From contig CANJIU010000003.1 in assembly GCA_947474365.1 (NCBI GenBank), forward strand, positions 62,001-126,000: a DNA stretch of 64,000 nt, read 5' to 3'. The stretch's first letter is position 1. Each line of letters begins with the position of its first letter. Both the position numbers and the translations under genes were made by a program. A model generated the notes under the pieces. It was given only the letters and a program-made list of their open reading frames with translations, did no database searches and was not told where the DNA came from. Below are positions 196-24,012 of the stretch, piece by piece. The DNA is from Opitutia bacterium. Lineage in GTDB: Bacteria; Verrucomicrobiota; Verrucomicrobiia; Opitutales; Opitutaceae.

Positions 196-1761
196 TCAAA
201 GCCCGTCGTAGATGATTTCGCACAGCCGGCCCAATGTGCGGCCTTCGCGGACCGTGTCGCTGCCTTTGTTCAGGTGCGTCAGGTTCACAAACATCGCGAA
301 CGTCAGTTTCCGGCCCGTTGAGGTCGTCATGTATCCCGCCAGCGCCTTGCTCGTGAGGAGGAAGCGGCCGTTCATCGTGTTCTCCCACGACAGAGTGCCG
401 GTCTTGGCGTGGACCTTGCCGCGCGCCGGACTGTTCGGGTCGACCACGCTGGCCAGCGTTCCGTCGACGCCGATCACCGGCAGCGCGGATTCGTATACCG
501 CGAAATCGGGCCGAGTGGTCATGTAACGCAGGAGCTGCACCGTCGCCCGTGGCGTCGTATAATCGCTGCGCGCGCCGCCGGCACCGCCGCCGAATGAGAT
601 CGTGTCCACGTCGATCCTTGCCCGAGCGAGGAAGTCATGCTGCAGGTGCAGTCCGTCGGCCAACGTGCGCCGGCCGTTTTTCGCTGCGACGAGCAACGGC
701 AGCGTGCTGGCATGAAGGTTGTGGCTGACCTTGAGGATCAATTTGGCCTCCTCGCGAAACGGCGCCGAGGTCAGGTGCGCCACGCGCTCCGACGCCTGGT
801 AGTTGTCCCGGGCGGGCAGCAGTTCGCCGCGATTTGCGGCGAGCGGCGAGGCATCGACGGCTACACCAGCGCGGCCGAGGGCCTCGATGAAAAGCGCCCG
901 GGCAAACGCGGCCGCGTCGGGGACCTCCGCCACGCGCAAGAGAGGTTTGCTCCCGATGGCGACGCGGCCGCGCACGACGATTCGGCCGGGCGCAGGAGCC
1001 GTGATTTGGATCCGCGGATCCTGGCCGCTCACGCTGGTCTCCACCTTGGCGTCGACGGTGATGGCGCTCGTCTTCGGTCGCCAATCCACCGTGGCCGGAG
1101 CACCGGCGGCGCCCGGCGTAATCAGAAAATCGATCACGTTGTCGTTGACGACGATGGCGGTCAGCTGCGACGGGCCACTGCCGGTGCTCTCGGCCTTGTC
1201 GAAGAGCCGGTCGTCGATCAGCACGTCCCCTCGCAGGCGCTTGACGCCCGCCGCGGCGACTTGGCGGGCGAGGTCGTTCAGTCCGGCGAGCGGATCGGGC
1301 TCGGTCAGCTCGCCCAGCGTCGAGCCGTTGGCGTAGGTGTGGTCGACATCCTTGAAGACAATCCGGCCGTCGGCCCCCGCGCGCCCGCCGAGAGTGAGAT
1401 CACCCTGAGCCACGAGGATCAGGTCGCCGGTCAGTTCGCCGGTCGTACTCAGTTTTCCCCGACGGTAGACGGGCGTCTCGAAACGATGCTCCGAGCCGAA
1501 GGTGTCGAGGGCGCTCGCGACGGTGTAGAGCTTCGTGGTCGAGGCGGGCGCGAAGAGCTTGTCGGCGTTGTGTTCGTGGAGGACGACGCCGTTTTCCTGA
1601 TCGACGAGGAGCAGCCCCCAATGGGCGTGCTTGTAGTCCGGTCCGTCGATGACCTCGTTGAGCCGCGCGGCGAGCGTGGGTGTCGCGGCGGGGGACGGCC
1701 GGGAGAGAGCGAGGCTGGCCGACAGGATCAGGGCGACGTGAACAAAGCGGGTGGGATTCAT
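196..1761 (-). CDS. dacB: D-alanyl-D-alanine carboxypeptidase/endopeptidase, PBP4 (peptidase S13) family
   Basis: The 521-residue product is a low-molecular-weight penicillin-binding protein that trims or cleaves peptidoglycan stem peptides in the periplasm. All three active-site motifs are visible: STTK at about residues 74-77 (nucleophile Ser74), SHN at about 346, and KTG at about 453. A signal peptide (MNPTRFVHVALILSASLALS) supports the ATG at 1761; the frame stays open 132 bases further upstream, but that stretch has no export signal and is rich in Arg and Pro. The long insertion between the STTK and SxN motifs is normal for the S13 family. The gene is divergent from the PhoD-like gene at 1892, with about 130 bases between the two starts. 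No unusual residues were seen. Housekeeping cell-wall function is likely, with no apparent link to the polysaccharide genes. Confidence 0.88.
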   Translation of the reverse strand: MNPTRFVHVALILSASLALSRPSPAATPTLAARLNEVIDGPDYKHAHWGLLLVDQENGVVLHEHNADKLFAPASTTKLYTVASALDTFGSEHRFETPVYRRGKLSTTGELTGDLILVAQGDLTLGGRAGADGRIVFKDVDHTYANGSTLGELTEPDPLAGLNDLARQVAAAGVKRLRGDVLIDDRLFDKAESTGSGPSQLTAIVVNDNVIDFLITPGAAGAPATVDWRPKTSAITVDAKVETSVSGQDPRIQITAPAPGRIVVRGRVAIGSKPLLRVAEVPDAAAFARALFIEALGRAGVAVDASPLAANRGELLPARDNYQASERVAHLTSAPFREEAKLILKVSHNLHASTLPLLVAAKNGRRTLADGLHLQHDFLARARIDVDTISFGGGAGGARSDYTTPRATVQLLRYMTTRPDFAVYESALPVIGVDGTLASVVDPNSPARGKVHAKTGTLSWENTMNGRFLLTSKALAGYMTTSTGRKLTFAMFVNLTHLNKGSDTVREGRTLGRLCEIIYDGL

Positions 1762-1891
1762 GGGGTGGATGATTGGCGTGGCCCGGACCGGACGAGGCAA
1801 GCCGGTTTCGTTTGGGCCAGTGGGCCATATTCCGTTGCGTCCAATCGTGGCCTTGCACCGCAGGACCTGAGCGCCATCAGTTTCTCCACCC

Positions 1892-3388
1892 ATGAACGTT
1901 CTTAACCCTTCCTTTCCGCCGGGGATTCGAAAAATCCCGGCGTTCGCCGCGTTGCTTGCGATGTTCGCGCTGGTTTTCGGAGCCTTGCAGGCGGCGCCCG
2001 TTTACCAGGGCAACGGTATCAAAATCGGTGAAGTGACCGCCGACTCCGCCATCGTCTGGACGCGGCTGACGATCGCGCCCGAAGGGAATTGGAGCGGCGC
2101 CGCATTTATCGAGCCGGTGCTCCCCGAGGGACAGAAGCCCGGGTTGGGGAATTTCGATTGGCGCGTGCAATTGCCCAAGGGCCGCACCGTGGCCGACATG
2201 GCGGGCGCATTGCCCGGCGCGGCGGGCGAGGTGCGCGTGACCCTGAAATCGGCGGCCGATGGCGCTCCGCTGGTAAAGCCCTGGACGCCGGTGCGCGCCC
2301 AGCGCGACTTCACGCAGCAATTCGAATTCGCGAAGCTGCGCGCGGGCACGCGTTACGAAGTCACGGTGGAATCGCGCGACCCGGCCGGTGCCGCCGGTGC
2401 GACGGTGCGTGGGGCGTTTCGCACCGCACCGGCTGCCGATGCGGTCGCTCCGGTGAACTTCGCCGTCGTCACATGCGGCGACTACCCGCGGCGCGATGAT
2501 CCGGCGAACGGCCACAAAATCTACGCCTCGATGCGCCGGCTGGCGCCCGACTTCATGGTCCACACCGGCGACGTCGAATACTACGACAAGGCCGACCCGT
2601 GGGCGAACTCGCCGGTGCTCGCGCGCTTCAAGTGGAATCGGATTTATGCGCTGCCGTTCCAGCGGGAGTTTCATCGCGAGACGGCGGCGTTCTTCATGTA
2701 CGACGATCATGACATCCTGCGCAACGACTGCTGGCCGGGCATGACCTTCGGCGAGCTGACGTTTGACGAGGGCGTGAAGATTTTTCACGAGCAGACTCCG
2801 AGCGGGCCGGCGCCGTACCGCACCGTCCGCTACGGACGCGACCTGCAGATCTGGATCGTGGAGGGACGCGTTGCGCGCAGCGCCAACACCGATCCCGACG
2901 GTCCAAACAAGACGATTTGGGGCGCCGCCCAGAAAGCCTGGTTTTACAAGACGGTCGCGGCGTCGGACGCGACGTTCAAGGTCGTCCTCACCCCAACCCC
3001 GATCGTCGGGCCCGATCGCGGCACGAAAAACGACAATCTGGCGAACGAGGGTTTCAAGACTGAAGGGAACGAGATTCGGAAGTTTGTCGGCGCCCAGCCC
3101 AACATGGTCGTCATCACCGGCGATCGTCACTGGCAGTATCATTCCGTCGATCCGAAGACGGGCACGCGGGAATTCGGCTGCGGTCCGTCGTCCGACGTCC
3201 ATGCTGGCGGTTATTCGCCCCAGCCTGGGGATGAGGCGGTACAGAAATTTTTCCGACTCAAGGGCGGTTTCATTACAGTCTTGGTGGAGCGCAAGGCCGG
3301 TGCGCCGGTCATGCTGGTGCGGCACCACGACGTCGATGGGTCCGTGGTGCTGGCGACACCGATCGCTCCGGCGAAGGTGGCGCGCTGA
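1892..3388 (+). CDS. PhoD-like alkaline phosphatase/phosphodiesterase
   Basis: The 498-residue product starts with a signal peptide (hydrophobic stretch at about residues 17-33) and the PhoD N-terminal beta domain (GEVTADSAIVWTRL at about 46-59). The metallophosphatase core follows, with VHTGDVEYYD, MYDDHD and ITGDRHWQYHS supplying the expected Asp and His metal ligands. PhoD-family enzymes hydrolyse phosphomonoesters or diesters outside the cytoplasm, usually with calcium and iron. The sequence lacks the Tat RR motif of classical Bacillus PhoD and probably uses Sec. It is convergent with the sulfatase at 3486 and divergent from dacB. Substrate is unknown; some family members are annotated from sequence only, so the call is to family level. 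Confidence 0.85.
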   Translation: MNVLNPSFPPGIRKIPAFAALLAMFALVFGALQAAPVYQGNGIKIGEVTADSAIVWTRLTIAPEGNWSGAAFIEPVLPEGQKPGLGNFDWRVQLPKGRTVADMAGALPGAAGEVRVTLKSAADGAPLVKPWTPVRAQRDFTQQFEFAKLRAGTRYEVTVESRDPAGAAGATVRGAFRTAPAADAVAPVNFAVVTCGDYPRRDDPANGHKIYASMRRLAPDFMVHTGDVEYYDKADPWANSPVLARFKWNRIYALPFQREFHRETAAFFMYDDHDILRNDCWPGMTFGELTFDEGVKIFHEQTPSGPAPYRTVRYGRDLQIWIVEGRVARSANTDPDGPNKTIWGAAQKAWFYKTVAASDATFKVVLTPTPIVGPDRGTKNDNLANEGFKTEGNEIRKFVGAQPNMVVITGDRHWQYHSVDPKTGTREFGCGPSSDVHAGGYSPQPGDEAVQKFFRLKGGFITVLVERKAGAPVMLVRHHDVDGSVVLATPIAPAKVAR

Positions 3389-14043: not shown

Positions 14044-17000
14044 TCAAAACGTGCCCTTCACGCCGAAGGTCCAGAGCGAGCCGGCCTGCTCGCGGCTGCG
14101 GAACTGCGCGTAGGAGGGCGTGAGCGGGCCCTCGATCTCGCGCTGATCGGGGGTGTCGTTGATATTGCGCAGGGTGAAGTAGACCCCGATCCGGCTTGTG
14201 ATCGAGTACTCGCCGAGAACGTCGATGAACACGCGCGACGACTGCCAGTTGAACGTGCCCGGTCCAATGCTCGCTCCGGTGACTTCGCCGAGCCGGTTCT
14301 TGCTTTGGTGGCTGACGTTGAGCCGGAGGTTGTAGCGTTCGCGGACGAGCGCGACGCCGCCGTTGATCCGGCGCGGGATGTAGCCGTTGAAGTTGGCGGC
14401 GGCCGGGCCCTGCGTCCGCTGCACGGCAGCGTTGGCAAACACATTCACGCCGCGCGCCCAGCTGGGCAGAAACGTGAGCGCCTGCTTGTAGCTGACGTCG
14501 ACGCCCGACATGCGCACCGTCGAATCGATGTTGTACTGCGTCGCGACGTCGTACGCGCCGTAGGTCTGGGCATCGAGTCCGTAAAGGGCGAGAAACTCCG
14601 GCGTGGCCCGGAAGAGGGTGTCGCCGAAAAAGTTTTCGAATTCGCGGCGGTAGGCGCCAACCGTAACCTGTCCGACGCCCTCGAAATAATATTCGAGCCG
14701 GGCGCTGATGGATTTCGCCGTCCAAGGCTTGATGCCGGCGTTGTTTACGGCAATCCGGTTGGTGGGGCTCGGGGCGGCCGAGTCGTCCGGCAGCGAGAGC
14801 CCGCCGGCATATTGGTCGAAATTGGGTCGGCCGAGCGACTGGAAATATGCTGCGCGGGCGATCAGGTTTTCCCGGAGGTTGAAGCTGGCGTTGAGGCTGG
14901 GGAACCAGCGCAAGTATTCCTTCTCCACCTTGGCACCGCGGTCGATCACAGTGAGCTGCGAAACGCCGAGCGCGTTGCTCGCCGGCACAATCAGCGACGG
15001 CGCGCCGTTGGCTAGAATCACCTTTCCACTGGCGTCGCGGCGGAAATTGCGCGTGCGGTCGGTCAGCGGGCCCTCGGCATCGACATTGGTCTGTTCCGCG
15101 CGGACGCCGCCGACGAGCTTCAACCGGCGATCGATCAAGGCCAGGTCGCCGCGGACGTAGCCCGAAGAAATCAGTTCCTGGGCGTGCTTGGAGCCGCTCG
15201 TCTCGGACAGGTACTTTGCGTTCTGATCGAGAGTGAACTGATTCGGTGTGGCGACGTAGGCGTCCCAGAGCTTGATGTTGTCGACCCATTGCACCTTGGG
15301 GAAGCCGTAGGGCATTGGGCGTTGCGAGTATCCCGGGGCGAAGAATCGCGCCGCGCCGTCGTCGTTGCCGACGGGGGTCGTGCTTGCCCGGCCGTCGGCC
15401 CCGACAAACTGGTAGTTGAAATTCGCCTGGCGCTGGTCGCGCTCGTCCTGTCGGAAATCGACGCCGGTTTTCAGGGTGAACGGCAGTGGGCCGGCGAATT
15501 CGCGCTGCGCGCTGGCGTTGGCACCCTTCTGGATGTCGTAGGTCGAGACCGGATTGGACGTGCCCTGCGTGACGACGTAATTGTTGATGTTATACGGATC
15601 GAGCGGCACCCCGGCGGCGTCGGTCACCGTGATGGTGTTCGGACGCAGGTAGAAGATGTCGGCGAAGGAGATCGTGGCGCCGGATCGCTGCGCGGTGGTG
15701 TTGCTGAAGTAGCCCTTGTCGGTGGCGCGAAACGTATTCCACCCCCGTGAGAAGCCGACACCTGCGTCCATTTTCCACACAGGGCCGTCGTGCCGCCAGA
15801 CGAGCGACGGAGTGGCGGTGGAGTTCGTGCGGTCGCGGTAGACGTTTCCGAGCTGCACGTTGCCCTGACCGGCGGCGCCACGGGTGAAGGTCGGCGAGAA
15901 ATTGCCCGGCAGGACGCTCGTGATGCTGTAGGTGATCGTGCGGTTCAGCACCAGGAAATCGATGAAGTAGTGCTGATAGGAGAAGGAGAGCCGGTCGTTC
16001 TGGGAGAGGCGGTAGTCGATCGTCGCCCCGAGCGAGCTGCGGGCCGCCTTCTTCGTGCCGTCGCGCACGGCGGTCTGGGTGAGATACGGCTGATCCGGCG
16101 TGGTGTGGGGAAAGGCGGCGCCGTTGGTCGCGGCCTGAACGCCGCGCCACGCGTTCTGGATGAATTTCTCCTTGGTGCCGTTGTCGGAGTGGCCGCCGGA
16201 GAGCGTGAAACCGAAATTTTTGTTGACCGGCCGGATGTAGGAAAAATCGAAACCGGGTTTCACTTTTCGGGTGTTGGCCTCGAAGGGCCCAGGCGACGGC
16301 CGGAGGTCGCGTTCATCATCGCGCATCATGAGATAGGCGCTGAATTTGAATTCGGGACGGGAGCGCTCAAACGCACTGCGAGGGATCATGTTGACGGTCC
16401 CGCCAAGTGCCATGCCCGGCGACTCCGGTGTCGGCGAGTAGGACACCTCGATGCGCGACGTCGCGCTGATCGAGGTCATATCCATCTGCGCCGCGCGGGC
16501 CGTGCCGTTGCCGCCGCCCGCGCTCGCCAGGTTGAATCCGTTGACCAAGATCGGGACGTTGTCTGAAGGCACGCCGTTGATCTGAATGCCGCGGGCGAGC
16601 GCGCCGGCCTCGTACTCGATGCTGATGCCGGGCATGAATTTCAGAAATTCGCCCACGCTGCCTTCGGCGACATTGCCGAACTCGTCGGTCGAAACGACGC
16701 TCTTGGTGTTGGGTGCGAAACGCTGCTCGTTGATCGCGATCGCCGCGCCGGTCATCTCGCGCGAGGTGCTGACGAGAAACTCGGAGAGCTTCACAATTTC
16801 GCCCTCCCGCGTGGCCCCCGGGCGGTCGGGCAGAGGGGAAAGTTTGAAGTCCAGCATGGCAGTCTGCCCAGCGGAGACGGTGACAGAGCTCGTTTGTACG
16901 ATGCGGCCGGTGGAAAACGCCTTTACCCGGACCGAGCCTGGCGGGACGTTGGTGAGGCGGTAGAAGCCGGCGGTATCGGTGAAGGTCTCCAACCCGGTGC

Positions 17001-17163
17001 CCTCGACAGTGACGCGGGCACGTTCGAGGTATTCACCATTGATGGGATTGACGACGCGGCCCTCGACGGTGGCGGTGGCATCGGCGGCGCGGGTGACGGA
17101 AGGACAGGACGCCGCGAGGGCGACGATGAAGGGCAATAGGATGACGACGGGGAATTGTTTCAT
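14044..17163 (-). CDS. TonB-dependent receptor with carboxypeptidase-regulatory-like domain
   Basis: The 1039-residue product has a signal peptide (MKQFPVVILLPFIVALAAS), a regulatory-like domain (VEGRVVNPINGEYLERARV...TDTAGFYRLTNVPPGSVRVKA, about 30-110), a conserved linker motif EIVKLSEFLVSTSREM, then a plug (about 150-270, with GIQINGVPSDNVPILVNGF and GMALGGTVNMIPRSAF). The barrel ends in LWTFGVKGTF with a terminal Phe. The start is taken at the ATG at 17163, which precedes the export signal. An insertion sequence sits 127 bases upstream in the same orientation and may have altered the promoter; before that insertion the next gene upstream would have been the AraC-type regulator. The substrate is unknown. 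Confidence 0.9.
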   Translation of the reverse strand: MKQFPVVILLPFIVALAASCPSVTRAADATATVEGRVVNPINGEYLERARVTVEGTGLETFTDTAGFYRLTNVPPGSVRVKAFSTGRIVQTSSVTVSAGQTAMLDFKLSPLPDRPGATREGEIVKLSEFLVSTSREMTGAAIAINEQRFAPNTKSVVSTDEFGNVAEGSVGEFLKFMPGISIEYEAGALARGIQINGVPSDNVPILVNGFNLASAGGGNGTARAAQMDMTSISATSRIEVSYSPTPESPGMALGGTVNMIPRSAFERSRPEFKFSAYLMMRDDERDLRPSPGPFEANTRKVKPGFDFSYIRPVNKNFGFTLSGGHSDNGTKEKFIQNAWRGVQAATNGAAFPHTTPDQPYLTQTAVRDGTKKAARSSLGATIDYRLSQNDRLSFSYQHYFIDFLVLNRTITYSITSVLPGNFSPTFTRGAAGQGNVQLGNVYRDRTNSTATPSLVWRHDGPVWKMDAGVGFSRGWNTFRATDKGYFSNTTAQRSGATISFADIFYLRPNTITVTDAAGVPLDPYNINNYVVTQGTSNPVSTYDIQKGANASAQREFAGPLPFTLKTGVDFRQDERDQRQANFNYQFVGADGRASTTPVGNDDGAARFFAPGYSQRPMPYGFPKVQWVDNIKLWDAYVATPNQFTLDQNAKYLSETSGSKHAQELISSGYVRGDLALIDRRLKLVGGVRAEQTNVDAEGPLTDRTRNFRRDASGKVILANGAPSLIVPASNALGVSQLTVIDRGAKVEKEYLRWFPSLNASFNLRENLIARAAYFQSLGRPNFDQYAGGLSLPDDSAAPSPTNRIAVNNAGIKPWTAKSISARLEYYFEGVGQVTVGAYRREFENFFGDTLFRATPEFLALYGLDAQTYGAYDVATQYNIDSTVRMSGVDVSYKQALTFLPSWARGVNVFANAAVQRTQGPAAANFNGYIPRRINGGVALVRERYNLRLNVSHQSKNRLGEVTGASIGPGTFNWQSSRVFIDVLGEYSITSRIGVYFTLRNINDTPDQREIEGPLTPSYAQFRSREQAGSLWTFGVKGTF

Positions 17164-17280: not shown

Positions 17281-17289
17281 AACGGCGAG
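17281..17289. repeat. Left target-site duplication candidate of the insertion sequence
   Basis: AACGGCGAG directly abuts the left inverted repeat. It matches 8 of 9 bases of ATCGGCGAG on the other side (19492-19500). Because both flanks continue with GGGGCGC-like sequence, the exact IS edge is ambiguous by a few bases. Confidence 0.5.
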
Positions 17290-17316
17290 GGGCGCATCTG
17301 CCGATTGGCGGTGATT
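17290..17316. repeat. Left terminal inverted repeat of the insertion sequence
   Basis: The 27-base sequence beginning GGGCGCATCTGCCGATTGG is the reverse complement of 19465-19491 except for one A/G difference in the middle (CCGATTGG versus CCGGTTGG). It is the likely transposase binding and cleavage end. Confidence 0.85.
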
Positions 17317-17317
17317 C

Positions 17318-18562
17318 TCAGTTCCAGAGATAGCGATCGTCGTTGTTGCGGAAGAGGACGGCGAGACCGAGCAGGTTGGAGAGGCCGGGGCGCTGCCAAA
17401 ACTGGCCGCTGCAGCGGAAGCGGCGCTGGAGTTGCGCGCCAAGCGATTCAACGGCTCCGCTGCCAATGGGAGCGCCGGCGCGATGGATTGCTTTGTAGTT
17501 CATGTGCTTTTCGTGAGTCTTGAAGTAGTTGGCTTCACGCTCGATGAGTTGCTGCGTTTCAGCGCTGCGCGGGGAGGTAGCTGTGATGAGTTCTTGGAGC
17601 CGGCGGACGACTCGGGCCTGCCCGCCATGGCGCAGGCGATGAAGCAGTGTTTCAACCCACGCGGTGGTCTGGGGAGTTTGGTCGCCGTAAAGCGCGCGGC
17701 CGACGGCCCACAGGTGCTCACTGGCATGATGGAAGTCGAGGGTCTTGACCGCATCGTGGAAACGATCTGCGGCGAGGTCCCACAGCCAGACGGCGCCGTC
17801 CATGACGAGGTAGACGACTTTGGCTCGGCCGAGGCCGCGCCGTCTGGCCTCGGTCTGGACGGCGGCGCCGAAGTCCACCGGAGCGGTCTGCGGCGGGCAG
17901 GCGACGATAAATTTTTCCAGCAGCAGCCCCCGGCCGCTGGCTTTCTCGGCGCGTTGTTCGAGCCGGTAGATGACCGCCGATTTGATTTCATGCCAGGCGA
18001 TGCGCTCGGGCGCTTTTTTGCGCGGCGAAGCGCCCCAATCCGGGCCGCGTTCGCGCGCCATCCATCCGTCCATCATGATCACCAGACTGAACTCGGGCTC
18101 GCGGGCCGGGACCGCTGCACTCGGCAGATTCGTGGCCTGGGCCACCGCGCCGCAGGACTGGACGTGTTGGTGGATGAGATCGTCGCTGACCGGGCTGCCC
18201 CAGCGCTGGGCCATCGCCGCCGCACGTTCATAGGAGCCGACGGCCGTGGCGGTGTAGCAGACCCGCGCCTCCAGTTCGGGACTCACCCGCTGGTAAGCGG
18301 CCAGGCCCCAGACCGTGCGCGCCGGGCAGACGACTTGGTCCAACCCTGCGCTGTAACCGTGGCGCACGCGCAGTGCGACGATGCCGGCCACGGTGTGCAG
18401 TTGCAGGTCACGCCAGCGGGTGTCGCGCAAGGGCCGGCCGCTTTGCGGACAGACCTGCTCCAACGCGTTGGCCGCTTGCTGTAATTTTTCCTCCAGCCGG
18501 CGACGCGTCCATTCGCGGCCTTCGGCGAGCACCGCCTGTTCGATTTCGCGCAAGGTGTTCAT
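17318..18562 (-). CDS. ISKra4-like family transposase
   Basis: The 414-residue product is intact. Candidate catalytic acidic residues are Asp165 in VIMMDGWMA, Asp255 in YLVMDGAVWLWD and Glu372 in IGSGAVESLG, in the right order and spacing for a DDE transposase. FHHASEHLW and the C-terminal IHRAGAPIGSGAVES with RFRCSGQFWQ are features shared by ISKra4 and related transposases. It catalyses excision and insertion of the element using the flanking 27-bp repeats. The start codon ATG at 18562 overlaps the stop of the DUF4338 gene (ATGA), indicating translational coupling. The frame remains open further upstream within the DUF4338 gene, but that is the shadow of the other frame. Confidence 0.88.
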   Translation of the reverse strand: MNTLREIEQAVLAEGREWTRRRLEEKLQQAANALEQVCPQSGRPLRDTRWRDLQLHTVAGIVALRVRHGYSAGLDQVVCPARTVWGLAAYQRVSPELEARVCYTATAVGSYERAAAMAQRWGSPVSDDLIHQHVQSCGAVAQATNLPSAAVPAREPEFSLVIMMDGWMARERGPDWGASPRKKAPERIAWHEIKSAVIYRLEQRAEKASGRGLLLEKFIVACPPQTAPVDFGAAVQTEARRRGLGRAKVVYLVMDGAVWLWDLAADRFHDAVKTLDFHHASEHLWAVGRALYGDQTPQTTAWVETLLHRLRHGGQARVVRRLQELITATSPRSAETQQLIEREANYFKTHEKHMNYKAIHRAGAPIGSGAVESLGAQLQRRFRCSGQFWQRPGLSNLLGLAVLFRNNDDRYLWN

Positions 18563-19470
18563 CGGCCGTCGCCTCGCAGTCGATACAGATAGATATCCTT
18601 GATTGGCACGCTCAGGCCGTGGTGGCGATCCTGCCGGCTGCGGCCGCGGGTCTGGCCTACGCAGCGCCAGTTCGCCGCCCGATAACAGGTCCCGCGAAAG
18701 CGATCCCGCTCCACGAAAGTCTCCAGCCAGCGCAAACCGTGGCCGTATTTTTCCCGCCAGTCCGCGTCGATCCGCCGGGCCACCGCGCCGAGCAGATGAC
18801 TGGCCAGGTGCGGCACCTCCACCCACGGCAGAATGAGGAAGCGCGTGTTGTTGGCCACTTCGGGGAGTCGCGCGGGTCGCTCCACCGCGCTCCAGCCCAG
18901 TTCGCGATCGCGGGGTGCGCAGCGCCAAGCCGGCGCGCCAAACAGGAGGCAGGCCAGGTCGCGGCCCTGCGCATCGCGCGCCAAATACCCCACATTCTCT
19001 CCAACCACCCGCAGCCCGAGATAGTGGTAGCGATCAAGATAGAAGGCCCATTGCCGGGCCTCGGCCGTGCCCGCTTGGACCAAATCGACTCTCACCGACC
19101 CAAGTTGCTGGAATGAACTGCCCCACGGCCTCGGGGCGTGCCAGCCAGCGGGCTCACGCACCACCCGCGGCCCTCGCCGCTTCGCCAAACGCAGCGCCGG
19201 CAACGTGATTTTTCCTTGCTGCTCCAGTTTCAGTAAGAAGCTGCGTGCCGCAAAATCCTTGATTCGCTGCCGCTCGTCCCGCCAGTGCCAGATCGCACAA
19301 AGTTCGCGCGCAATCCGCTTTCGGCTCCACTGCGGGTACCGGAGAATCCAACTCCGCAGCCACTCAATTTCCTCTGTTCCCACCCAGCGGCCTTGGATGC
19401 ATTGTCGCGCTTCCACGCTGTGCAGCTTGGGCGGAAAAATCTGGTAGTCCAGCGAAATCGTAAAAATCAC
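18559..19470 (-). CDS. DUF4338 (DruA-like) protein carried by the insertion sequence
   Basis: The product of about 303 residues matches the DUF4338 family, whose named member is DruA of the Druantia anti-phage system. Recognisable blocks are an N-terminal HTH-like region (SRKRIARELCAIW...LLKLEQQGKITLP, about 49-92), YLDRYHYLGLRVVGE (about 144-158), LACLLFGAPAW, NNTRFLILPWV (about 207-217), LASHLLG, LETFVERDRFRGTCYRAANW and a final VGQTRGRSRQD. No ATG is present near the start: the options are GTG at 19470 (used here) or TTG at 19476, both inside the right inverted repeat. It is coupled to the transposase by ATGA. No DruB-E genes are nearby, so it is unlikely to act as a Druantia system here; an accessory role in transposition, such as DNA binding at the ends, is an inference. 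Confidence 0.82.
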   Translation of the reverse strand: MIFTISLDYQIFPPKLHSVEARQCIQGRWVGTEEIEWLRSWILRYPQWSRKRIARELCAIWHWRDERQRIKDFAARSFLLKLEQQGKITLPALRLAKRRGPRVVREPAGWHAPRPWGSSFQQLGSVRVDLVQAGTAEARQWAFYLDRYHYLGLRVVGENVGYLARDAQGRDLACLLFGAPAWRCAPRDRELGWSAVERPARLPEVANNTRFLILPWVEVPHLASHLLGAVARRIDADWREKYGHGLRWLETFVERDRFRGTCYRAANWRCVGQTRGRSRQDRHHGLSVPIKDIYLYRLRGDGR

Positions 19471-19491
19471 CGCCAACCGGCAGATGCGCCC
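19465..19491. repeat. Right terminal inverted repeat of the insertion sequence
   Basis: This is the partner of 17290-17316, with 26 of 27 bases complementary. It contains the possible GTG and TTG start codons of the DUF4338 gene, so transposase binding here could repress its own operon. Confidence 0.85.
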
Positions 19492-19500
19492 ATCGGCGAG
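19492..19500. repeat. Right target-site duplication candidate
   Basis: ATCGGCGAG follows the right inverted repeat directly and matches AACGGCGAG at 17281-17289 in 8 of 9 bases. Confidence 0.5.
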
Positions 19501-19611
19501 GGGCGCTTCGCCGTTTCCGCCGGGCCGAGGCGAGGGAAGGCGCGGATGAAACGTCGCCGACGTTAGTGGGCTCGTGGCAGGCGAATCTTCCGGTCCGTTT
19601 TCGTTCCGTGC

Positions 19612-20586
19612 TCAACGCGCTGTCGTTCGTGCGGCCAGCGGCGGCTTCAGGATCGTTCGGCGCCAGACGGTCGGGGGCACCTTGGCAAAGGCCTTGAAGG
19701 CGCGGCAAAAGTCGCTGGTGCAGGTGAAGCCGCATTCGTCGGCAATGGTGTCGAGCTTGAGTTTCGTCTCGGTCATCATGCGCATCCCCTTTTCGATTTG
19801 GATCCGGCGAAACACCCGGGCCGGCCGTTCGCGGAGCACGCGTTTGAACATCCGGCGCAGTGTGCTGGGTGAGACATGGACCTCGCGCGCCACCTCCACG
19901 ATTGACGGATTGGCGCGCACGTGATCGCCGTACCACGTGATCGCGCTGTCCACGGAACGCTCGGCATCGCCCTCTACGGCCAAAGTTTTCGCCTGCGGAA
20001 GTTTTCGCAGCACGAGCAGGGTGAGTTCGATCAGCGCGGCCTGGAAAACCAGGTGACTCAAATTGTTTGGCTTTTGGAAGTCGGGCTGCAGTTGCCGGGC
20101 GAGGGCGGTCAGGCGCTCGCATTCCGCGGGTTTGAGCGTGACGGCAAATTGCCCTTGGTCGCGCAAGGCGGACTGGAGCGCCGCCGGCACCGAGCCGAAG
20201 TGAAACACCGCCACGTGGGCACGGCGCCTGCCGTCGCCCGCCCAGGTATGCATGCTACCGGGTGCGGACACCCACAGGGTCGTTTCCGTCAGCGGAGGAC
20301 GGGCGGTGTCGGGGACGAGCGGCGCACATCGCCCCTGCACCACGGCGAAGAATTCCCAATTCATCCGTTTCAGCGGTGCGATCGGATACAGGCCGAACTG
20401 GCGGGGACCGATCCCGAGGTATCGCAACATGGCGTGAACGGTAGATGCCGAGTCGGGGGTGTAAAGCATCCCGAATGGGGAGTGGTGGCTGTGCGTGGAA
20501 TCGCATGCCGGCTGGCGTGGCCCGCAGGAGACGGGCCGTTTGGCGTGGGGCGATCTGCTCGTTTTTGTATGAAGGTTGACTGCCAT
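19612..20586 (-). CDS. AraC-family transcriptional regulator
   Basis: The 324-residue product has an N-terminal cupin-like sensing region (NWEFFAVVQGRCAPLVP at about 75-91, AHVAVFHFGSVP at about 123-134) and a C-terminal double helix-turn-helix (about 225-315). The HTH part contains SIVEVAREVHVSPSTLRRMFKR and LDTIADECGFTCTSDFCRAFK followed by VPPTVWRR, the standard AraC layout. It is probably a sugar- or metabolite-responsive activator. The gene is divergent from the receptor gene at 20692 with about 105 bases between starts, so that receptor is the likeliest target. An alternative start at Met40 (20469) would remove a poorly structured basic N-terminus; I cannot decide between them because neither has a clear ribosome binding site. 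Confidence 0.88.
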   Translation of the reverse strand: MAVNLHTKTSRSPHAKRPVSCGPRQPACDSTHSHHSPFGMLYTPDSASTVHAMLRYLGIGPRQFGLYPIAPLKRMNWEFFAVVQGRCAPLVPDTARPPLTETTLWVSAPGSMHTWAGDGRRRAHVAVFHFGSVPAALQSALRDQGQFAVTLKPAECERLTALARQLQPDFQKPNNLSHLVFQAALIELTLLVLRKLPQAKTLAVEGDAERSVDSAITWYGDHVRANPSIVEVAREVHVSPSTLRRMFKRVLRERPARVFRRIQIEKGMRMMTETKLKLDTIADECGFTCTSDFCRAFKAFAKVPPTVWRRTILKPPLAARTTAR

Positions 20587-20691
20587 CCCACTGTCGTCTG
20601 ACGTGCGGACCTGTTACGCTTGAAGCCAATGTTCCGAATCCGGACGCAGGACCCTTCTGCATCCGACCCTACGTACGTTTTTCAGACCCCT

Positions 20692-23600
20692 ATGCATCAC
20701 CAAAACCGCACCCTCGTCCCACTGCTCATGGCGGCGGGTTTTGCCTCGCTGCTCCCTGCGGCGCGGGCCCAGCAAAAAACGGCGCCTGCTCCGGCTGCCA
20801 ATTCCTCCGACAAGAAGGAGGAGGTCGTTCTGCTCTCGCCCTTCACGGTCGCATCCGAGGCCGACCGGGGCTACCAGGCCCTCAACACGCTTTCGGGCAC
20901 CCGGCTGAATTCCAAACTCGAGGACCTGGGCGCCTCGATCACCGTCGTGACCAAGCAGCAGATGCAGGACATGGCCGTGCTGGATTTGAACGACGTGTTC
21001 CTCTACGAGGCGAGCACTGAGGGCACGGGCAATTATACCCAGTTTACCCCGAACCGCACCGGCGGCATCATCGATGGTACGGCCAATGACCCTGCAACCG
21101 CCAACCGCATCCGCGGCGTCGGCAGCCCGATCAGCGGCAGTGGCGTGAACATCGCCGTGGGGAATTTCTCGAGCAACAACAAGATCCCGATGGACACGTA
21201 CAACATCGATGCGGTCGAGATCTCGCGCGGTCCGAACTCGAACCTCTTCGGCTTGGGCGCGGCCGCCGGCACGGTCAATCTGGTCCCGTCGAAGGCCAAC
21301 CTCCTCCGCAGCAGCACCGGCACGACGGTGCGTGCTGACAGCGAGGGCGGCCATCGTTTCACGATCGACGTGAACCGACCGATCATCGAGGACAAGTTTG
21401 CCCTCCGTTTCGCCGCGGTTGATGAGTCAAAGGGTTTCACGCGCCAACCGGCCGAGGAGCAGATCCGGCGCTATTTCGGCGCGATCCAAATCCGGCCGTT
21501 CAACCAGACCACGATCAACGCGTCCTTCGAGAAGTACGAGAATTTCTACCGCCGGCCGAACTCCGTCACCCCGCGCGACACCACTTACGAGTGGAAGGCC
21601 TCCGGCCAGCCGACGTTTGATCCGACGACCCAGATCGTGACGTTTGCCAACGGCACCCGCTCCGGCCCCTATGCGGTCACGAACGAAAACACGCTCCTGC
21701 CTCCCGGCCTGATGGCCGGCAACAGCTACGGCCGGCTCAACGCCTGGTTCGACCAGAACGGGCTGCAGACCATCACCGTGGGCCGCACGGCCACCGCGAT
21801 CACGACGGGAATTCCCTCGCCCTACACCGCGAACACGAATGTGCGCTACATCCAGACCGGCACCGACATCATGCGGCGCAAGGCGAATCCGTTCCCGCTG
21901 TTCTTCGCGCCGGGCCTGGCGGACAAGTCGATCTATGACTGGTCCAACACCAACTTTGTGTCCGCCAATTTCGGCCAGGACAACGCTTCGACCCTGCGGG
22001 TCGAAGCGGAGCAGGTCCTGCTGAAGACGAATTCCAACCTGATCGCGGCGCGCGCGGGTGTCATGTACCAGAAGTTCAATCGCTTCAGCCGGAGCATGAT
22101 CGACAACACCGACACCGTGCTCTACGTCGACGTGAACTCCAAACTGCTCGACGGCCGGGCCAACCCGAATTTCCTCCGGCCCTTTGTCGAGGCGGTCGGT
22201 CCGTTCGACACCAACAATCTCGAGATCAACGACACCCAAAATGCCGACCTCGCGTATCAGTTCACCCCGCACAATCTGCCGGGCTGGCTATCGTGGATCG
22301 GCACGCAGCGTCTGGCCGCGCACGGCGAGGTCAATCGCAACACCACGGAAAACTACACCTACGGCAACTGGGTCGCCTCGGACAACCCATGGGTGAACCG
22401 CGCCAACCGCGTGGCGGCGACCCAGCTCTCGCAACGTTATTACATCGGCGACAATCAGGGACAGAACGTCGACTTCGGTCCCTCGACGCAGCGCGACATC
22501 ACCGGGCGGCAGAATCTCTACTGGTTCAACAACCTCACCGGACAGTGGGTCAATGAGCCGATGGAAATCGGCGCGCTCGGCCGCACCGCCACGGGCAGGG
22601 CGCGGGGTGAACTCCGGACGTTGTCGTTTACCGGCCAGAGCTACTTCCTTAGCGATCGCCTGATCACCACGGTCGGTTTTCGTCGGGATCGACGTCGCAC
22701 CCGCAGCTCTGGCACCGCGCAGGTCAACCCGGCCACCGGCCTCGTGACGTATGAAAACTACAATGTCTGGGGGCCGTGGACCGACGACGCGGTCGGTCCG
22801 TTGGGTGAGGCGACGCGCGCCTCCCAACGCGGCGACACCAAGACCTATGGTGCGGTTGTTCGCCCGATGCCCTGGTTGAACCTCTATTACAACCGCTCCG
22901 ACAGCTTCTTCCCGCAGGTCGTCCGCTACGCGATGGACCTGAACGGCGTGCTGCCCAACGCCAAGGGCGAGGGCAAGGACTACGGCATCAGCTTCACCGC
23001 GCTCCAGGGCAAGCTGAGCGTCAAGTTGAACCGCTACGAAACCAAGGAACTGGGCAGCCGCGCCGGCGAGGTGGGTACGATTGGCAACCGGACGTTCCGC
23101 CTGGAGGGGCGCCAGGAGGCGAACGGCATCCGCGATGCGAACGGTTTCTACCCATGGGCGCTGAATCTTTCCAATCAGCGTTTCGCGGCCCAGGGCATCA
23201 CGCCCACCGCCGCCCAGTCCAACGCCGCCGTGGCAAAGATCATGGGTGTGACGGACGATTGGATGACGACGTTCCTCACCGCCGGCCTTGCGCAGCCGCA
23301 GACGAACGGCCTCTCCGACGTCGTGTCGAAGGGGTATGAACTTGAGGCGACCTACAATCCGACGAAGAACTGGCGGATCAAGTTCACCGGCGCGCAACAG
23401 GTCGCGATCGACTCGCGGATTGGCAACGAGATGTTTGATTACTGGCAGTCGCGTCTTCCCACCTGGACCACGGCCAAGGACGATCAGGGCCGGCTTTGGT
23501 GGAACACCGTTCCGGCGCTCGGCGGCGACACACCTGAGACCGCGTATTACAACAACCTGATTTCGCCGTATCTCTTCAGTGTTGCCAATGTGGGCAAGCC

Positions 23601-24012
23601 CCGCACCCAGGTCCGCAAATATCGCTGGAACACCGTGACGAACTACACGTTCACCGAGGGCATGCTGAAGAACTTCAACGTGGGTGGCGCGGTCCGCTGG
23701 GAGGACAAGGGCTCGATCGGCTTCCTCGGCGCCGCCCCCTCGAAGATCCCCGGCAACTTCCAAGGCGTAATCCTAGAGCTGGATCCGAACAAGCCCGTCT
23801 ACGATCCGTCGCGCTTCTATTTCGACGCGTCGGTCGGATACCGGATGCGGCTCTTCAACGACAAGATTCGCGCCAACTTCCAGTTGAACGTGCGCGACGT
23901 GTTTGAAGGCGGCCGGTTGCAGGCGGTGGGAGCAAATCCCGACCGCTCAATCTACGCCTGGCGCATCGTCGATCCGCGCCGGTTCATCCTGAGCGCGTCG
24001 TTCGACCTGTGA
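20692..24012 (+). CDS. TonB-dependent receptor, LSPF type, AraC-linked
   Basis: The 1106-residue receptor has a signal peptide (MHHQNRTLVPLLMAAGFASLL...ARA), then VVLLSPFTVASEADRGYQA, a short conserved motif seen in many Opitutaceae receptors, followed directly by the plug (about 65-215: SITVVTKQQMQDM, VEISRGPNSNLFG, AGTVNLVPSKA). The barrel ends in ILSASFDL. There is no carboxypeptidase-regulatory domain. It is strongly similar to the receptor at 38725 throughout (shared YQAxNTLSGTRLNxKLEDLG, ADxxxxPNSNxFG, RIKF, and the SFDL end), so the two are paralogues. The ATG at 20692 precedes the export signal; the frame extends to 20620. A perfect intrinsic terminator follows at 24046. Ligand unknown. 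Confidence 0.9.
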   Translation: MHHQNRTLVPLLMAAGFASLLPAARAQQKTAPAPAANSSDKKEEVVLLSPFTVASEADRGYQALNTLSGTRLNSKLEDLGASITVVTKQQMQDMAVLDLNDVFLYEASTEGTGNYTQFTPNRTGGIIDGTANDPATANRIRGVGSPISGSGVNIAVGNFSSNNKIPMDTYNIDAVEISRGPNSNLFGLGAAAGTVNLVPSKANLLRSSTGTTVRADSEGGHRFTIDVNRPIIEDKFALRFAAVDESKGFTRQPAEEQIRRYFGAIQIRPFNQTTINASFEKYENFYRRPNSVTPRDTTYEWKASGQPTFDPTTQIVTFANGTRSGPYAVTNENTLLPPGLMAGNSYGRLNAWFDQNGLQTITVGRTATAITTGIPSPYTANTNVRYIQTGTDIMRRKANPFPLFFAPGLADKSIYDWSNTNFVSANFGQDNASTLRVEAEQVLLKTNSNLIAARAGVMYQKFNRFSRSMIDNTDTVLYVDVNSKLLDGRANPNFLRPFVEAVGPFDTNNLEINDTQNADLAYQFTPHNLPGWLSWIGTQRLAAHGEVNRNTTENYTYGNWVASDNPWVNRANRVAATQLSQRYYIGDNQGQNVDFGPSTQRDITGRQNLYWFNNLTGQWVNEPMEIGALGRTATGRARGELRTLSFTGQSYFLSDRLITTVGFRRDRRRTRSSGTAQVNPATGLVTYENYNVWGPWTDDAVGPLGEATRASQRGDTKTYGAVVRPMPWLNLYYNRSDSFFPQVVRYAMDLNGVLPNAKGEGKDYGISFTALQGKLSVKLNRYETKELGSRAGEVGTIGNRTFRLEGRQEANGIRDANGFYPWALNLSNQRFAAQGITPTAAQSNAAVAKIMGVTDDWMTTFLTAGLAQPQTNGLSDVVSKGYELEATYNPTKNWRIKFTGAQQVAIDSRIGNEMFDYWQSRLPTWTTAKDDQGRLWWNTVPALGGDTPETAYYNNLISPYLFSVANVGKPRTQVRKYRWNTVTNYTFTEGMLKNFNVGGAVRWEDKGSIGFLGAAPSKIPGNFQGVILELDPNKPVYDPSRFYFDASVGYRMRLFNDKIRANFQLNVRDVFEGGRLQAVGANPDRSIYAWRIVDPRRFILSASFDL

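Follow-up and report, generated by a model that had tools for sequence, protein, structure and literature searches.

A Mom-like DUF4338 module joined to transposases of several insertion sequence families

What is a gene of the DUF4338 family doing inside an insertion sequence (IS), directly ahead of the transposase gene? The question is raised by a 64,000-nucleotide stretch of an Opitutia bacterium genome (assembly GCA_947474365.1, contig CANJIU010000003.1, positions 62,001 to 126,000), hereafter the window, in which a complete element encodes a DUF4338 protein followed by an ISKra4-like transposase (Table 1). As an IS the element is ordinary; what is unusual is a module resembling the Mom protein of phage Mu that is common to transposases of several IS types. 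We found DUF4338 joined, as neighbour or as fusion, to at least six transposase families: IS66, ISKra4, ISL3, IS4 (including the Tn5 type), ISAs1 and IS701. That the protein takes part in transposition appears likely to us, and we favour, with less assurance, an accessory transposition protein with a DNA-binding helix-turn-helix and a Mom-type GNAT domain, translationally coupled to the transposase and forming a portable module. No description of a DUF4338-transposase module was found among the papers listed by searches of the openly licensed literature.

Genome contigs were scanned with an alignment of seven sequences, which yielded 338 confirmed stretches, and the best 80 of these 338 were classified. 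Family names were obtained from representatives by hidden Markov model (HMM), and the other loci were assigned by BLAST to these representatives. A family-assigned transposase was located directly downstream on the same strand in 72 of the best 80 DUF4338 loci. The partners were IS66 in 59 (58 by script and L127 by hand, where the match starts 72 bases short of the frame's end), ISKra4-like in 11, and IS4 and ISL3 in one each. Another locus (L109) possessed a downstream putative transposase lacking HMM support, and the twin of this neighbour in L005 had no match in NCBIfam (E ≤1e-5) or in Pfam (E ≤1e-4). The seven loci without a downstream transposase comprise two at a contig edge (L106, L117), a truncated one (L133), one with IS66 sequence on the other strand only (L110), and three with no match in the accepted place (L063, L091, L132). 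A Pfam search of a phylum sample of 145 genomes found PF14236, the DUF4338 family, over its cut-off in 14 (controls, 0 of 14). Among the 26 matches over cut-off, 17 adjoin or are fused to a recognised transposase, one stands beside an unrecognised putative transposase, seven are cut short or lie where a contig ends, and the remaining one (L018) has another setting. The genome of the window itself contains two more PF14236 matches, an ISAs1-type fusion (L024, G000:C59) and one cut by a contig end (L029, G000:C64). In a plasmid collection, the window protein found two of 72,556 records. The counts among the best 80 relatives, together with the fusions described below, uphold the view of an earlier sequence-only reading of the window that DUF4338 is a transposase partner and not a chance neighbour.

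The association extends to single polypeptides, as DUF4338 lies N-terminal to transposase domains in fused proteins of the ISAs1, IS701 and Tn5 types (Pfam). The IS701-type fusion (L006) carries DDE_5, its IS701 name coming from plasmid relatives, and L008 is of the Tn5 type (Pfam). For the ISAs1 type, seven fusions possess DDE_Tnp_1_assoc, L013 has DDE_Tnp_1 alone, and L028 matches the NCBIfam ISAs1 model at E 1.2e-16, below cut-off; a second frame in L028 seems, from its sequence, to carry the remainder of the transposase. One genome contains four copies of an ISAs1 fusion that are 99.8-100% identical over about 1.9 kb. Three of them have differing flanks, a contig start truncates the fourth, and a duplication was not identified.

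Five IS66 loci (L075, L079, L081, L082, L098) and the ISL3 locus L107 have ends that surround both genes and are accompanied by exact 8-bp duplications. In L096 (ISKra4), the ends surround both genes with an 11-bp direct repeat, and in L105 (IS4) they agree at 23 of 24 positions with no duplication. L066, L067, L084, L087, L111 and L121 are among the loci with agreeing ends and no clear duplication; for many other DUF4338 loci, the scan for ends gave nothing convincing. The inverted repeats of L108, L114 and L133, which resembled hairpins produced by assembly, were set aside. As L107, L081 and L075 each occur as one full copy in their own genomes, the case for mobility rests on the ends, the duplications and the four ISAs1-fusion copies. 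The L075 genome also has a remnant of IS66 type (L158), which matches positions 1239-2452 of the L075 element only and has a broken gene, ruling it out as a clean copy without DUF4338.

A tree of 69 DUF4338 proteins was built from the window protein and 68 loci (a length filter removed 11 of the 80, and L142 was omitted). Partner labels changed 11 times on this tree when unlinked rows were counted as a label, compared with a shuffled mean of 17.7, and seven times without those rows. The labels are thus more clustered than in shuffles, indicating that partner exchange is repeated but not free. For example, the IS66-linked L064 and L065 are nested in an ISKra4-linked clade with a support of 98 (by a quick method). 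The ratio of nonsynonymous to synonymous substitution rates (dN/dS) for DUF4338 was 0.08-0.32 in 13 chosen pairs with partly overlapping members, and the gene is under purifying selection in the tested pairs. Transposase values were 0.13-0.31, except for L076/L079 (0.55) and L084/L077 (1.12); the frame of the latter is doubtful, and since its transposase identity of 28% may reflect a wrong frame, this pair was not relied on.

The DUF4338 assignment made by the sequence-only reading was confirmed by a match to PF14236 at E 6.9e-26 and 91.5 bits, the gathering cut-off being 27. An AlphaFold2 model of the protein (69-sequence alignment; mean predicted local distance difference test score 89.3) displays three N-terminal helices, which are likely a helix-turn-helix according to this model, followed by a C-terminal GNAT-like fold. 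Fold searches of the PDB returned 414 matches, of which 79 were at E ≤0.001, and the best 50 of the 414 were GNAT proteins. Searched against PDB sequences, the DUF4338 profile matched nothing at E ≤0.1. The domain is already called GNAT in a passage of PMC10853773, and a link to Mom, seen at the level of sequence comparison, is what we add to that assignment. The Pfam Mom family was matched by 33 of the 69 aligned members at E ≤0.1 (best 4.7e-7). The window protein matched phrog_1384, a family of Mom-like DNA modification proteins, at E 8.6e-4, and phrog_1384 was the sole PHROGs match at E ≤0.01 for four IS-linked DUF4338 proteins; one DruA protein matched a different PHROGs family. Profile-profile comparison of DUF4338 with nine Mom proteins aligned 160 columns at E 4.8e-6 with a probability of 86%. 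The residues aligned between both groups are HY, R, S/T-F-x-D/E and GxxYxAxN, and Mom invariants without a counterpart in DUF4338 proteins include E98, L99 and G71. Many polar residues are invariant or almost so in the DUF4338 alignment, a pattern fitting for an enzyme. In short, the DUF4338 protein is like Mom of phage Mu and Mom-like proteins (PF25680, phrog_1384, 8bv8) in its GNAT-type fold and many conserved residues. It differs from them in its added N-terminal helices, in the loss of some Mom invariants, and in being encoded on an IS by a gene coupled to a transposase. Viral fold matches of the model include phage endonuclease-like and homing-endonuclease-named proteins, which raises the possibility that mobile nucleases, too, carry a GNAT domain of this kind.

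An accessory transposition protein of this kind could work as follows: 1) coupled translation or fusion would bring the DUF4338 protein together with the transposase; 2) the N-terminal helices would find DNA; and 3) the Mom-like domain would work with the transposase on element or target DNA, either by modification or as a structural subunit. Chemical modification of bases in the manner of Mom, proposed by analogy, is a tentative suggestion to which we give slightly less than even weight. A broader proposal is that many unrelated IS families possess a self-encoded Mom-like enzyme, linked to the transposase by coupling or fusion, that would chemically mark element or target DNA to control transposition, DruA being a degenerate offshoot; this strikes us as rather doubtful.

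Several observations weigh against the accessory-protein reading. The best 80 loci are the closest relatives of the window protein, and 72 of 80 is therefore not a family-wide rate. On one of the two plasmids matched by the window protein, what comes after DUF4338 is an integrase and an IS91 gene, with no transposase of its own in an incomplete gene table. Support for the helix-turn-helix comes from the model and from HTH_32 matches in seven of the 69 aligned members (Pfam). The best 50 of the 414 PDB matches belong to other kinds of GNAT acyltransferase and do not include the solved structure of Mom (8bv8), and the window protein itself has no Pfam Mom match at E ≤0.1. The Tn5-type fusion L008 is without the HY pair. 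Only the locus of the window itself had a DUF4338 match among 30 ISKra4 loci, which were taken from the 145 genomes with flanks of about 1.5 kb, in some cases shortened by the end of a contig. Moreover, ISKra4 elements at large do not need DUF4338, because L035, another ISKra4 element of the window's genome, has none. Finally, DUF4338 is no simple replacement for TnpA or TnpB in IS66 elements, an idea that was dropped because 23 of the 80 loci also encode an IS66-type TnpB (same strand and upstream in 17, other strand and downstream in six). IS66 elements (TnpA, TnpB, TnpC) are the commonest partner of short DUF4338; the window element itself, by contrast, is not IS66. DUF4338 is not known to be part of the usual IS66 gene set.

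Among the alternatives, a non-catalytic DNA-recognition subunit survives best. Through its helix-turn-helix and GNAT scaffold, such a subunit would attach to the ends or to the target and bring in the transposase, with no chemistry involved, and a DNA-recognition subunit carried by this IS had been one proposal of the sequence-only reading. The N-terminal helices of the model agree with that proposal, and the fusions to three kinds of transposase are of a sort in which linkage of a DNA-binding domain is natural. Inspection of the alignment by eye did not reveal the usual coenzyme A-binding loop, and L008 lacks HY. However, DUF4338 conserves HY, R, S/T, D/E, Y and N in common with Mom, more than a scaffold would appear to require, and inspection by eye, with no systematic search made, found no motif that the ends of the different partners have in common. 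We consider a purely non-catalytic subunit possible, though we lean against it.

A conserved sequence upstream of DUF4338 bears on a further alternative, in which the protein is an autoregulator that binds CTGGACT at its own promoter and limits transposition. The box CTGGACT was found upstream of DUF4338 in 42 of the 66 rows having the anchor residue, across IS66, ISKra4-like and one unrecognised partner, whereas any 7-mer reached at most 10 rows in 50 Markov shuffles. It mostly lies 17 bases ahead of a -10-like stretch near the start codon; in the window this stretch is poor. In another DUF4338 clade, TGCGTTC occupies the equal place in 12 rows (L122-L140), all IS66-linked. In these 12 rows, tnpB was upstream on the same strand in nine, downstream on the other strand in two, and not found in one. 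The recurrent box and its counterpart in a second clade are in favour of an autoregulator, but the position of the box is that of a -35 element, so that it may be promoter only, and it could have been inherited with the gene. Furthermore, it is absent from IS4- and ISL3-linked rows and from some ISKra4-linked rows, and several ISAs1-type fusions have a TAGACA-like sequence upstream instead. CTGGACT could serve as a -35 element, as an operator or in both ways. Autoregulation, which is combinable with the other readings, is in our estimate unlikely.

It is also conceivable that DUF4338 is a passenger that shields the element or host DNA from restriction or another defence and has no role in transposition. 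Its relationship to Mom could be read in this way, as Mom protects phage Mu, a role given in the abstract of PMC6483171. Direct fusions to transposases and the constant place just upstream of a transposase speak against a passenger, as do the elements with ends and duplications, in which the two genes fill most of the length. We judge this explanation quite improbable.

The name DruA attached to PF14236 raises the question of how the protein relates to Druantia, an anti-phage system. The sequence-only reading had called the gene DruA-like; membership of PF14236 stands, and the residues and PADLOC results below make the name a poor one here. PADLOC DruA models had no match to either window protein at E ≤1, and they matched, weakly, seven of 10 other DUF4338 proteins scanned (L018 apart). 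Six of the matched proteins are IS-linked relatives, with E values from 1.5e-6 (L107) to 0.04. Two Druantia type I DruA proteins were compared, both from plasmid loci with a downstream helicase gene. Like the IS proteins they belong to PF14236; unlike them they are about 410 residues long, lie upstream of a helicase gene, and have lost or never had most of the Mom-like residues retained in the IS proteins. In the alignment, which is one of low identity, they are without the HY, N-x-R and F-x-D/E residues. Together with L018, they form a separate branch (support 92/91) with long branches. L018 itself (1294-2253, minus strand) encodes its DUF4338 protein next to a small gene that reads as nuclease-like and perhaps of phage type. 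The function of DruA is called unknown in a passage of PMC7251935. A possible origin of DruA from a transposition factor, as the sequence-only reading had suggested, is compatible with the sequence tree. A full IS66 set (tnpA, tnpB, tnpC) lies directly upstream of a Druantia druA on the Pseudomonas putida plasmid pKF715A (L162, 6243-10143).

Capture by the IS of a stray Druantia-type defence gene is thus a highly improbable explanation: the strong match to a family named DruA and the PADLOC matches of some IS-linked relatives are outweighed by the absence from the two-gene element of Druantia type I partner genes, including the helicase (PADLOC empty for the window pair at E ≤1), and by the divergence of the two DruA proteins at most conserved sites. 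Because 17 of the 26 phylum-sample matches adjoin or are fused to recognised transposases, lone PF14236 matches should not be counted as Druantia.

The anatomy of the window element is that of a complete IS, and it agrees with the sequence-only reading in its inverted repeats, its imperfect duplication and its pair of overlapping genes. The terminal repeat GGGCGCATCTGCCGATTGGCGGTGATT on the transposase side recurs inverted at the other end with 26 of 27 positions equal (repeat search), and the two copies of the target duplication agree at eight of nine positions with one mismatch. Both genes are on the minus strand and fill the element, DUF4338 being first and the transposase second. The longest DUF4338 open reading frame (18559-19476, minus strand) opens at TTG 19476. 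The start of the gene is probably GTG 19416, because the sequence common to relatives begins near there, because ATG sits there in many relatives, and because the first 15 residues of the longer frame are poorly predicted in the AlphaFold2 model. A genome search found one complete copy of the element in the source genome; the remaining three matches paired its two ends with one another or fell on 29 bp of a different contig.

Table 1. Features of the insertion sequence and its target duplication (window coordinates)
Feature	Position	Strand	Basis or remark
Complete insertion sequence, ISKra4-like, two genes	17290..19491	(-)	2202 bp; inverted repeats and flanks
Left copy, imperfect 9-bp target duplication	17281..17289		aacggcgag
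Terminal inverted repeat, transposase side, 27 bp	17290..17316	(+)	26/27 complementary to 19465-19491
ISKra4-like transposase, 414 residues	17318..18562	(-)	NF033572, E 1.2e-53
ATGA overlap, stop of DUF4338 gene and start of transposase	18559..18562	(-)	Open reading frames
DUF4338 gene, likely GTG start	18559..19416	(-)	N-terminal helices read as helix-turn-helix, then Mom-like GNAT domain
CTGGACT box	19446..19452	(-)	40 bp inside DUF4338-side end, at place of -35 element
Terminal inverted repeat, DUF4338 side, 27 bp	19465..19491	(-)	Repeat search
Right copy, imperfect 9-bp target duplication	19492..19500		atcggcgag

The transposase matched NF033572 (ISKra4) over nearly its full length with 182.8 bits, a score below the curated cut-off of 205, and is ISKra4-like, as the sequence-only reading had it. 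It contains MMDG (163), VMDGA (253) and GAVES (369), which we take to be the catalytic acid region. The element L035 has GGGCGCATC ends, an exact 9-bp duplication and a transposase that begins at most 49 bp from the element end. Its exact duplication and equal terminal nonamer support the boundaries of the window element and the 9-bp length of the duplication. Transposase identity between the two is 34.8% over 399 residues, making L035 a different IS, and terminal GGGCGCATC alone is common to both elements. Copies with identical ends and no DUF4338 had been named beforehand as evidence that would speak against the pairing, and L035, as a different IS, is not such a copy. The window element thus resembles the ISKra4 family in its transposase profile match, its GGGCGCATC ends and the length of its duplication, and differs from it in a score below the curated cut-off and in the extra DUF4338 gene before the transposase.

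As for the insertion site, the flanks of the element (17281-17289 and 19492-19518) suggest that the target was perhaps an inverted repeat (GGAAACGGCGA ... TCGCCGTTTCC), perhaps a hairpin. Targeting of a repeated hairpin was not borne out, as the source genome contained no exact matches of the flank pattern. The element sits about 120 bp upstream of the point at which a same-strand gene that reads as TonB-dependent-receptor-like (14044-17163) appears to begin, and could part this gene from its promoter or drive it. On the other side, the element is adjoined by an AraC-like regulator gene by reading (19612-20586, minus strand), and a second TonB-dependent-receptor-like gene by reading occupies 20620-24012 on the plus strand.

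If DUF4338 is the accessory transposition protein that we favour, one module would serve IS66, ISKra4, ISL3, IS4, IS701, ISAs1 and Tn5-type transposases. This would point to an undescribed step common to the transposition of these elements, possibly the modification of DNA by an enzyme that the IS itself makes. For DruA, the finding would provide a lead, since it places the family of this protein beside Mom.

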